Part shown: in pieces, positions 43,509 to 48,392 of the stretch
How positions within the stretch are numbered: the first letter of the stretch is position 1
Layout: the number at the start of each line of letters is the position of its first letter
Source of the DNA: Pyrobaculum neutrophilum V24Sta
GTDB lineage: Archaea > Thermoproteota > Thermoprotei > Thermoproteales > Thermoproteaceae
Direction of reading: 5' to 3'
Length of the DNA stretch: 64,000 nucleotides
Assembly: GCF_000019805.1 (NCBI RefSeq)
Contig: NC_010525.1
Span: 186,001-250,000 of the forward strand
Program-made: the position numbers and the translations under genes
The notes under the pieces: generated by a model
Databases searched by the model: none
Told to the model about the DNA's origin: nothing
The model's input: the letters and a program-made list of their open reading frames with translations, nothing else

Positions 43509-44660
43509 ATGTGGCGGATCCTGCCGCTACTGCTGGCGGCGCTTGCGGCCGCCGGCACGTTGACAGACCACTTCTCCTCTCCCCCCATCGAGGTGCTCGT
43601 CATTAGGACAGACCAGTGGCTCTTCTGCCAAGACTACGGCGTGACCATCCAGATAAAGGCCACACAGCCCGTCACGGTTAACAAGGTAACTGTAACGGCG
43701 AAGTTTTTCCCCGAGGGGACCCTGGTCCCCACAGTCCAGTCCAAGACCTACAACGGCTTTACGCTAGCCGCCGGCCAGATATGGCAGGAGTCTGCCACCT
43801 TCAACTACTGCCCCCAGAGGCGAATAGACCCCCTCATCCTCCTGGAGATCGCGGTGTATCTTCCCAACTACACTCTGACGTATAACTACTACATAGGCCG
43901 TGTGTTGCCCACCACCTACGAGGACCTGGCCAGCTACGCCGCATCGCTAGAGCAGAGGGTTAGGGACCTCGCCGGCCAGGTGGAGCAGCTGAGGCGGCAG
44001 GCGGCCGACCTCCAGACGCGCTTGGCGAACCTCAGCACCCTACTCGCGGTGGCTAGGGCGGACAACGACAGACTCGCAGCGGCTCTTGCCCAAGCCAAGG
44101 CGGAGCGCGACGCCCTCAAGACCCAGCTGGACCAGCTACAAGCCCAGCTCAACGGCGTGAGCCAGGCCCGGGCCTCGCTGGAGGCGCAGCTGGCGGACGC
44201 CAGAAGGCAGTTGGACGAGGCGAGGGCCGCCTACGACAAGCTGTCAAGCCAGTACTCAGACGCGCAGAGGACCATCGCGGAGCTACAGACGAGGCTGGCG
44301 GATCTACAGAGGCAGTACGACGAGCTGAAGAAGTCGGAGCAACAGCTGAGGGAAAGCTACTACGCCCTATCGGCCAAATACAGCGAGCTCTCCGGCAGAT
44401 ACGACGAGTTAAACAGGGCCTATAGGCAGGCGGTGGAGGAGAAGGCCCTCCTCCAGAACAGATACAGCGAGTTAAACACGGGCTTCACCTGGGCCATCAA
44501 CGCCGCCACGGCGCTGGCGGTGGCCCTACTCTTCCTAATAGCCCTCGTCATCACGAGGAGGAGGCAGACCCCGCCCCCGCCGCCGCAGGTAAAAACCGCC
44601 GCGGTGATACAGGAGGAGCCTAAGGAGACGCTGGTAAAGTGGCCAGCCACAAGAGAATAA
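43509..44660 (+). CDS. Surface-anchored coiled-coil protein
   Basis: A 383-residue protein with an N-terminal signal helix (ILPLLLAALAAAGTL). A beta-rich ectodomain (30-130) with two Cys (FCQDY and NYCPQ) could form a disulfide. A long coiled coil (about 145-330) repeats AQLEQL/LDQLQAQL-type heptads, then come a TM 'WAINAATALAVALLFLIALV', RRR and a proline-rich cytosolic tail. It follows the metal permease by 19 bp and occupies the position where a substrate-binding protein would be expected, but shows no binding-protein fold. The role is unknown. Confidence 0.75.
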   Translation: MWRILPLLLAALAAAGTLTDHFSSPPIEVLVIRTDQWLFCQDYGVTIQIKATQPVTVNKVTVTAKFFPEGTLVPTVQSKTYNGFTLAAGQIWQESATFNYCPQRRIDPLILLEIAVYLPNYTLTYNYYIGRVLPTTYEDLASYAASLEQRVRDLAGQVEQLRRQAADLQTRLANLSTLLAVARADNDRLAAALAQAKAERDALKTQLDQLQAQLNGVSQARASLEAQLADARRQLDEARAAYDKLSSQYSDAQRTIAELQTRLADLQRQYDELKKSEQQLRESYYALSAKYSELSGRYDELNRAYRQAVEEKALLQNRYSELNTGFTWAINAATALAVALLFLIALVITRRRQTPPPPPQVKTAAVIQEEPKETLVKWPATRE

Positions 44661-46083: not shown

Positions 46084-47157
46084 GTGCTCTGGTTTGTATT
46101 AACCACGGGCGCCTGCAACCTACAATGCAGATACTGCGGTGGGTCCTTCGACGAGAGGCACTCGCCCTGGAGGCCCAAAGTCGCCGCGGGGGAGGTCGCC
46201 CGCTTCATAGCCCAGAGAGACGGGAAGCCGGTCGTGTTCTTCTACGGGGGGGAGCCCCTCCTAAACCCCCACTACGTCGTGGAGGTCATGGAGGCGCTTC
46301 CCAACGCCCGCTTCGGCATCCAGACCAACGGGACGCTGGTGAGGAGGCTCCCGCCCGAGGTCTGGCGGAGGTTCTCCACCGTCCTCCTCTCAATAGACGG
46401 GCCCCAGGAGGTGACGGACTACTACAGGGGGCCGGGGGTCTACAGGAGGGTCGTGGAGGCCCTCCGGTGGCTAAAAGACGAGGTTGGGTGCGGGTGCAAG
46501 ACCGTGGCGAGGATGGCCGTCGGCAGGAGGTCGGACATATACAGAGATGTGACCCACCTCCTCGGCCTGGGCTTCGACGCGGTGCACTGGCAGCTGAACG
46601 TCATCTGGACAGACGAGTGGGGCCCCCGGGAGTTCCTGAGGTGGGCCGAGGAGAGCTACCTCCCCGGCGTTAGAGGGCTGAGGGACCTCTTCCTCTCGGA
46701 GGCGGAGCGGGGAAGGGCTCTGGAGGTGATCCCCATCCTAGGCATATACCGGGCCCTCCTCGTGAGGCCCTACGACTGGGTCCCGTGCGGGGCGGGGAGA
46801 CACGCCTTCGCCATAAACACAGACGGGAGGATCCTACACTGCCCCATCGCCGTTTCGGAGAAGTGGGCCACAGCCGGCCACATAAGGATCGGGCTAAACG
46901 GGGCGGCGCCCCGCCTAAGGGACAGGTGCCTCGTCTGCGAATATAGACACGTCTGCGGCGGCCGATGCCTCTACACCCAATACGAGGACTACTGGGGCGA
47001 GGAGGGCTTCGACGCCGTCTGCCAAGTCACCAAGAGGACTATAAAGATCCTCGAGGAGGAGGCCCCCAGGCTTAGGAAGCTCATAGACGCGGGCGTGTTA
47101 GACCCGAGACGGCTCGACTACGACCCCCTCCTCGACTCCACAGAGGTGATCCCGTAA
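46084..47157 (+). CDS. Radical SAM/SPASM enzyme, probable peptide or protein modifier
   Basis: A 357-residue enzyme. The radical SAM cluster is in 'GACNLQCRYCGGSFDE' (CxxxCxxC), with 'VVFFYGGEPLLNPHYV' and 'GIQTNGTLV'. The SPASM domain carries a C-terminal Cys set: 'ILHCPIAVSEKW', then 'RCLVCEYRHVCGGRCLYTQY' and a last Cys about 17 residues on, for auxiliary Fe-S clusters. SPASM enzymes typically install thioethers or modify peptides. GTG 46084 is 22 bp from 'actataaata'. A tiny lysine-rich ORF follows 55 bp downstream. Confidence 0.9.
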   Translation: MLWFVLTTGACNLQCRYCGGSFDERHSPWRPKVAAGEVARFIAQRDGKPVVFFYGGEPLLNPHYVVEVMEALPNARFGIQTNGTLVRRLPPEVWRRFSTVLLSIDGPQEVTDYYRGPGVYRRVVEALRWLKDEVGCGCKTVARMAVGRRSDIYRDVTHLLGLGFDAVHWQLNVIWTDEWGPREFLRWAEESYLPGVRGLRDLFLSEAERGRALEVIPILGIYRALLVRPYDWVPCGAGRHAFAINTDGRILHCPIAVSEKWATAGHIRIGLNGAAPRLRDRCLVCEYRHVCGGRCLYTQYEDYWGEEGFDAVCQVTKRTIKILEEEAPRLRKLIDAGVLDPRRLDYDPLLDSTEVIP

Positions 47158-47212
47158 TCCCTAATACGGCTGTAATACCAAGCGACAGTTAATTCCCCCA
47201 TGCACTCTGCTA

Positions 47213-47260
47213 CATGCCCTGCAAGAAGAAGAAGGCCGAGGCCAAGAACGAGGCCAAGTA
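47213..47260 (+). CDS. Possible 15-residue peptide (candidate radical SAM substrate)
   Basis: ATG 47213 encodes MPCKKKKAEAKNEAK then TAG. 'gttaattcc' (47188-47196) lies about 21 bp upstream, the leaderless spacing used across this window. A pyrimidine-rich run (ccccccttttcccc) soon after the stop could end the transcript. It has one Cys, seven Lys and four Ala, directly after a SPASM-type radical SAM gene. It is too short for statistical support; the overlapping ATG 47199 frame is less coding-like. Confidence 0.35.
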
Positions 47261-47375
47261 GCCCCCTCCGGAAAACCCCCCTTTTCCCCTACACGGCGGC
47301 CCGCGTTTTAGCCCGCGCTGCCGGGCTTCTCGCGGGCGCTGGAAAAATTTATTATGGAGATGCGATTTCCCTCTG

Positions 47376-48392
47376 ATGATCGGGGAAGTGTACGCACACC
47401 TGGAGAAGATCAGGGACTTCTTCTACGGCCTTGCCGAGGTGAGAGATAGGCTTAGGGAGTCGGGGGTTACCTGGCCCAAGCCTCTCCCCGAGGCCGAGGT
47501 GGGGACCGTAAGAGTTAAGATAGGCCTCCCGGCGATGCTCAGGCGGGGGGTCATCATGGACGTCACCAGCGTGGAGCAGGCGCAGATAGCTGAGGAAGCG
47601 GGCGCCGTGGGCGTCATGGTGTTGGATAAGCTTCCCTACGACGTTAGAAAGGCCGGGGGCGTCGCAAGGATGGCGGACGTGAAGGTGATAGAGGAGGTCA
47701 TGAGCCACATCACCATCCCCGTCTCGGCTAAGGTGAGGATCGGCCACTACTACGAGGCCGTGATCCTACAGGAGATCGGGGTGGACCTCATAGACGAGTC
47801 CGAGGTCCTCACGCCTGTGGACGAACAACACCACATAAACAAGTGGGCCTTCGCGGTGCCCTTCGTCAACGGGTGCCGCGAGCTGTGCGAGGCGCTGAGG
47901 AGGATCTCCGAGGGAGCCTCGATGATTAGATCCAAGGGCGAGGCGGGTACTGGCAACGTAAGCGAGGCCGTGAAACACTTCAAGGCCCTATATGGGGCGA
48001 TAGAGGAGCTGTCGGCCGCGCTGAGGACGGGGGACGAGGAGAGGATAAGGGACTACGCCAGGAGGTGCCAAGCCCCCATAGAGCTGGCCGCGCTTACGGC
48101 TAGGCTGGGCAGGCTCCCCGTGGTGACCTTCGCCGCCGGCGGCATAGCGACGCCGGCAGACGCGGCCTTGATGATGTGGCTGGGGGCAGACGGCATATTC
48201 GTCGGCAGCGGCATATTCAAGAGCCAGGACCCCAGGGAGAGGGCGGAGGCCATCGTGCTGGCGGCGGCCTACTGGGACGACCCGGAGAAGGTGGTGGAGG
48301 CCCAGAGGATGGTCAGCGAGAAAAGCGCCATGATGGGCATAGACGTCAAAACGCTGAAGCCCGAGGAGCTGCTCCAGACCAGGGGGGTATGA
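47376..48392 (+). CDS. pdxS: Pyridoxal 5'-phosphate synthase, lyase subunit PdxS
   Basis: A 338-residue (beta/alpha)8 subunit that builds PLP from ribose-5-P, glyceraldehyde-3-P and ammonia. It has '[20 protein letters not shown]' with active-site Asp, '[20 protein letters not shown]' with the first Lys, '[20 protein letters not shown]' and '[13 protein letters not shown]'-like '[17 protein letters not shown]'. The N-terminus has about 30 residues more than bacterial enzymes. ATGA overlap with pdxT; TATA 'atttattatgg' about 24 bp upstream. Confidence 0.98.

Follow-up and report, generated by a model that had tools for sequence, protein, structure and literature searches.

A probable 15-residue, single-cysteine microprotein gene in Pyrobaculum, adjacent to but apparently independent of a TIGR04084 radical SAM/SPASM enzyme

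A 15-codon open reading frame located just downstream of a radical SAM/SPASM enzyme gene in a Pyrobaculum genome is very probably a real coding gene, to which, as far as could be checked, no annotation has been given and which we provisionally name MPCK. With moderate confidence, we regard it as a stand-alone microprotein gene driven by its own promoter, whose product would be a disordered, polycationic peptide with a single thiol, independent of the neighbouring enzyme and perhaps bound to RNA or to the ribosome. MPCK recurs across families of heat-loving archaea, at several unrelated loci of Thermoproteota and irrespective of TIGR04084, the family of the neighbouring enzyme, and we judge that this enzyme is not functionally tied to the micro-ORF. 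In our literature search, neither TIGR04084 nor MPCK peptides were treated in any paper found.

The window, by which we mean the whole 64-kb stretch of DNA analysed (G000:C1:186001-250000), belongs to a Pyrobaculum genome made of a single contig of 1,769,823 bases. Comparisons were carried out at the level of the genus (11 Pyrobaculum genomes, 8 with a TIGR04084 enzyme gene and 3 without), of the order (45 genomes) and of the phylum (398 Thermoproteota genomes), and the 268 ATG ORFs of 10–25 residues present in the window formed the background set for micro-ORFs. The MPCK ORF, whose ATG lies 56 nt after the stop codon of the enzyme gene, is unique among these 268 in having at least 33% Lys (table 1). 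A sequence-only reading of this DNA had proposed a real peptide gene at this place, of a length that gene callers pass over. Its size argument stands, and the gene itself is borne out by conservation, by codon changes that are exclusively synonymous over codons 1–7 and by a TATA box; the ORF is indeed present, although its start had been placed at 47213, one base off.

Table 1. Coordinates of the features discussed and the micro-ORFs detected in other genomes.
Feature	Position or genome	Strand	Basis or remark
MPCK micro-ORF MPCKKKKAEAKNEAK (15 aa + stop TAG)	47214..47261	+	sequence, orthologues, relatives
TATA-like element TTAAT, inferred promoter	47189..47193	+	-25 from ATG 47214
Radical SAM/SPASM enzyme, TIGR04084; GTG start, 357 aa	46084..47157	+	profile match
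Enzyme C-terminus, last seven residues DSTEVIP	47134..47154	+	conserved among TIGR04084 relatives
pdxS (PLP synthase lyase subunit)	47376..48392	+	next gene downstream; Pfam SOR_SNZ, 310 bits
Pyrobaculum MPCK products MPCKKKKAEAKNEAK, MPCKKKKSENKGETK, MPCKKKKSAKEEKA, MPCKKKKSGEKSTN, MPCKKKKNNEKSSK, MPCKKKKNVANAKTS	six Pyrobaculum genomes		
Thermoproteus-like copy MPCKTKKKAAEAKTS	G040 (sister genus)		one-mismatch scan
Thermoproteus-like copy MPCKSKSKKTAEAKSA	G041		stretch picked by synteny (position relative to enzyme)
Thermoproteus-like copy MPCKSKKKEGQAKQS	G042		stretch picked by synteny (position relative to enzyme)
Copy outside the order, MPCKKKASGEKKKEEEKKQ	G214		
Copy outside the order, MPCKKKTSGEEKKKEGEKKQ	G260		
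Copy outside the order, MPCKKKASEKKKEEKKQ	G209		
Copy outside the order, MPCKKKKKEEVKKKENEKN	G389		
Copy outside the order, MACKKKKESKQEQKQEEKKSK	G328		
Copy outside the order, MPCKRKKENKEKKEESKKESKN	G292		
Copy outside the order, MPCKRKSEGKKEEKKESKKEAKQ	G207		
Second type, MCAPPKKAEEKKKEAEKKQ	G003, L395 offset 6168	reverse	N-terminal Cys, K/E tail, TATA-like box
Second type, MCTPPSKVKKEEKKEKTN	G042, L297:3117		N-terminal Cys, K/E tail, TATA-like box

The motif MPCKKK occurs at one exact site per genome in 6 of the 11 Pyrobaculum genomes, with no site for its reversed control, and the seven-codon pattern ATGCCNTGYAARAARAARAAR matches 7 times in the 398 Thermoproteota genomes against 0 times for the reversed control, which is more than chance. 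The wider family was delineated by a one-mismatch scan of these 398 genomes followed by a reading of the candidate loci, with most of the further sites examined being attributed to chance and three being retained. In total, there are 16 stand-alone relatives, of which 6 are from Pyrobaculum, 3 are Thermoproteus-like and 7 come from genomes of three Thermoproteota families outside Thermoproteales (f15, f50 and f4). The stretches of G041 and G042 picked by synteny contained, besides their MPCK copies, a single other Lys-rich micro-ORF poor in hydrophobic residues (MCTPPSKVKKEEKKEKTN, in G042). All 16 members follow the pattern M[P/A]CK-x-K, then a tail of Lys, Glu, Ser and Ala, over 14–23 residues, with an invariant Cys3 as sole cysteine and 0–1 hydrophobic residues after Met1. 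Their net charge stays at +4 or +5 whatever the length, because the extra residues of the longer tails pair Lys with Glu. In the Thermoproteales members (14–16 residues), the invariant part lies at the very N-terminus and the C-terminal part is variable. As for the distant members (17–23 residues), homology between orders is not provable at such a size, and their Cys-Lys micro-ORFs may have arisen by convergence; a Pfam search with two members of 20–21 residues, queries so short that they have little power, gave no match.

Exact-pattern matches were also encountered 13 times on viral contigs, in ORFs devoid of a K/E tail that we took as chance. Several viral contigs (L308, L309, L311, L312, L315, L316 and L318) carry short MPCKKKK ORFs with basic tails, for example MPCKKKKRKPRY and MPCKKKKSKNKRKKK, which we regard as chance occurrences, although the former, found in two viral contigs, may be a real phage micro-ORF.

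The near absence of hydrophobic residues, the constant charge of +4 to +5 and a tail free of sequence constraint together predict a disordered product. As the initiator Met is generally cleaved off when Pro or Ala follows, the mature peptides would begin with P-C-K or A-C-K, and this Cys-Lys motif would be their working end. The Lys cluster could then dock on a polyanion, for which RNA, the ribosome or another ribonucleoprotein comes first to mind, while the single thiol would engage in one defined contact, bind a metal or form a covalent bond and the charged tail would act as a solubilising spacer. We infer this docking on RNA or another polyanion only weakly, and propose it as a tentative mechanism.

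The eL41 protein and other tiny ribosomal proteins are very short, positively charged and without a fold of their own. In one specific form, our preferred explanation would make MPCK a ribosomal or ribonucleoprotein microprotein, namely a lineage-specific counterpart of eL41 anchored in rRNA by its Lys cluster. Such a role is in our opinion unlikely. MPCK does resemble eL41 in being very short, positively charged and presumably foldless, its constant charge and lack of hydrophobic residues fit, and crenarchaeal ribosomes are known to host extra small proteins, such as aL45–aL47 in Sulfolobus (PMC10516650). However, its Cys3, its Glu-rich tails and its lack of Arg and of an aromatic pattern set it apart from eL41 and the known tiny ribosomal proteins, its presence is patchy even inside Pyrobaculum, and a PDB sequence search with members of 20–21 residues, in which short queries have low power and chains below 20 residues are outside the library, returned no match at E ≤ 10.

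About as improbable is a small soluble thiol or metal peptide, that is, a redox buffer or a carrier of persulfide or soft metal in which Lys and Glu would mainly ensure solubility. If the single Cys fixed in all members and the existence of a second micro-ORF type with an N-terminal Cys and a K/E tail are in line with this idea, one Cys makes a poor metal site and the fixed Lys4 and Lys6 would be left without explanation. The haloarchaeal zinc-finger microproteins (e.g., HVO_0758), which bind zinc and harbor two C(P)XCG motifs (PMC10716476), are likewise archaeal, Cys-containing and of an easily overlooked size, but the single Cys of all 16 MPCK members and the absence of a C(P)XCG motif distinguish the latter from them.

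That the peptide, rather than its transcript, is what matters is suggested by the comparison of the six Pyrobaculum copies, in which the pairwise codon differences over codons 1–7 amount to 46 synonymous and 0 nonsynonymous. Between pairs at comparable loci, 15–20 of the 21 bases of these codons are kept, against 16–26 of the 45 nt upstream (~35–58%). As read from these codons, the N-terminus M-P-C-K-x-K is shown to be under strong selection. A TATA at about -25 is the spacing required for leaderless mRNA in archaea, and in 9 of 9 Thermoproteales copies a TATA-like box starts between -23 and -28 relative to the ATG, against 18 of the 268 background micro-ORF starts. This recurrent position makes it most likely that the MPCK transcript is leaderless, in agreement with the leaderless layout and dedicated TATA proposed in the sequence-only reading. 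Conserved codons, less conserved flanks and a fixed TATA indicate that what is conserved is a brief coding sequence together with its short promoter. A regulatory short transcript (leader ORF or sRNA) could be suspected on the grounds that this unit is short and TATA-driven, that runs of T follow several copies and that the ORF is antisense to its neighbours in two genomes. Nonetheless, we find this quite improbable: selection acts on the amino acids and leaves synonymous sites free, the flanks are the less conserved part, the genes downstream vary between genomes, so that no common cis target appears for the transcript, and an Rfam scan around the ORF and ten relatives gave nothing above the gathering score except one tRNA.

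At least three unrelated genomic contexts surround the micro-ORF within Pyrobaculum alone: downstream of the radical SAM gene (G000, G004 and G006), antisense between a methyltransferase and an MqnA-like gene (G001 and G005), and adjoining a tRNA gene (G002). Among the copies read, pdxS follows the peptide in G000 and G004 only. MPCK was found neither in two enzyme-bearing genomes (G003, 81% of which was read directly, and G009, searched by pattern scans) nor in the three Pyrobaculum genomes without the enzyme, which implies that it is dispensable within the genus. The 2.0 of 2.47 Mb of G003 that were read for any Cys/Lys micro-ORF contained no MPCK copy and one MCAPPKK ORF, and three-mismatch matches in G003 and G009 were dropped since they correspond to the N-terminus of RadA (MSSKKKK...).

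From the adjacency in the window, it was tempting to see in the peptide a substrate of the SPASM enzyme, one of the two possibilities raised by the sequence-only reading (the other, a very small structural peptide, is still plausible), all the more so as the two genes stand side by side in the same direction in G000, G004 and G006, Cys3 is invariant in 16 of 16 members, the enzyme gene, although broken in G004, is found in all six peptide-bearing Pyrobaculum genomes and the closest structures to the enzyme are SPASM enzymes that modify peptide or protein cysteines (anSME, ChlB and CteB). Under this scenario, the peptide would be a RiPP-like precursor that the enzyme modifies, for instance by a thioether or an oxidation at Cys3. 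The comparative evidence, on which the same reading had staked the link by proposing to look for the ORF and its TATA beside orthologous enzymes, speaks largely against it. Indeed, the peptide adjoins the enzyme gene in only 3 of the 8 enzyme-bearing Pyrobaculum genomes and in 0 of 3 Thermoproteus genomes, where 81–125 kb separate the two. Order-wide, TIGR04084 is present in 38 of 45 genomes versus 6 for MPCKKK, and in other genera no conserved partner was found among the small ORFs near the enzyme. Conversely, the five peptide-bearing genomes of other families that were searched for the enzyme (G209, G214, G260, G389 and G328) have no TIGR04084 protein above the cut-off, and in three of these five the profile finds nothing even at E 1e-5. 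The enzyme gene of G004 is interrupted after residue 243 by ~2.3 kb of inserted DNA that carries a TnpB-like ORF (G004:C1:1207722-1210034) and is moreover frameshifted near its C-terminal end, yet neither the peptide nor its TATA box is damaged; in G003 and G009, the enzyme gene is intact and no peptide was found. In the enzyme tree, G000 pairs with G004 and G006 is not resolved, and thus the adjacency may have arisen only once, within a part of the genus.

SPASM-modified RiPP precursors such as SCIFF, ranthipeptides and ChlA share with MPCK a conserved Cys and, in some genomes, a short ORF beside a SPASM enzyme. Here, co-occurrence with the maturase breaks down in the five genomes mentioned above, adjacency to it is not conserved and, at 14–16 residues with the N-terminus as invariant part, no leader and core can be recognized; the enzyme, for its part, has no N-terminal domain ahead of its radical SAM core. 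We are therefore fairly confident that the peptide is not a dedicated substrate of TIGR04084, and a RiPP-like precursor is very unlikely. Finally, a chance ORF, which might be evoked because the frame is short and most micro-ORFs of any genome arise by chance, is extremely improbable in view of the conservation, the coding signature, the promoter position and the control patterns with zero matches.

The neighbouring enzyme is nevertheless a clear member of TIGR04084 (rSAM_AF0577), a family with which the peptide does not track. Its residues 5–357 align on the full profile (1–347 of 347) with 527.6 bits for a cut-off of 225, and both the CX3CX2C cysteines (C11, C15 and C18) and the SPASM cysteines (C235, C253, C282, C285, C291 and C295) are invariant in 30 relatives, in agreement with the initial identification of a SPASM radical SAM enzyme. 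In its AlphaFold model (pLDDT 90.9; best PDB matches anSMEcpe, ChlB and CteB), the radical SAM barrel begins at residue 2, which is why we consider it to be without an N-terminal recognition domain. Almost every TIGR04084 relative read has E-[IV]-[IV]-P as its last four residues, and these relatives range from Thermoproteota to bins bearing the labels Bathyarchaeota, Thorarchaeota, Pacearchaeota and Nanoarchaeota: 74 of 78 sequences (the enzyme of the window plus those of L001-L075, duplicates included), down to ~30% identity, end in IIP, VIP, IVP or AIP, and the 4 exceptions are remote relatives. Such a fixed extremity suggests that the carboxy-terminus takes part in the active site or in an interface. 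Elsewhere in the window, positions 43509-44657 encode a 383-aa coiled-coil protein with a signal-like N-terminal segment and a C-terminal membrane segment, which adjoins an ABC transporter pair.

Beyond MPCK, two genomes contain a second type of micro-ORF, MC(A/T)PPxK followed by a K/E tail. It has a TATA-like box at -23 to -28 in both cases and could be a second family, hinting at a class of microproteins with an N-terminal Cys and a K/E tail. It is conceivable, albeit speculative, that MPCK and MC(A/T)PP represent a wide class of leaderless microproteins with a single thiol and 14–23 residues, so far overlooked in Thermoproteota, which would serve a core complex as small fixed components or as thiol cofactors. 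If so, few conserved protein genes known would be as small as theirs, and a peptide that did belong to the ribosome or to some other core complex would rank with the smallest components of that kind. For the locus itself, an enzyme–substrate pairing that was tempting but wrong is removed. More generally, genes of 14–23 codons lie under the usual annotation thresholds, and a conserved family of this size accordingly marks a blind spot in archaeal annotation, for which M[PA]CKxK preceded by a TATA at -25 offers a concrete motif usable on existing RNA and proteomics data.
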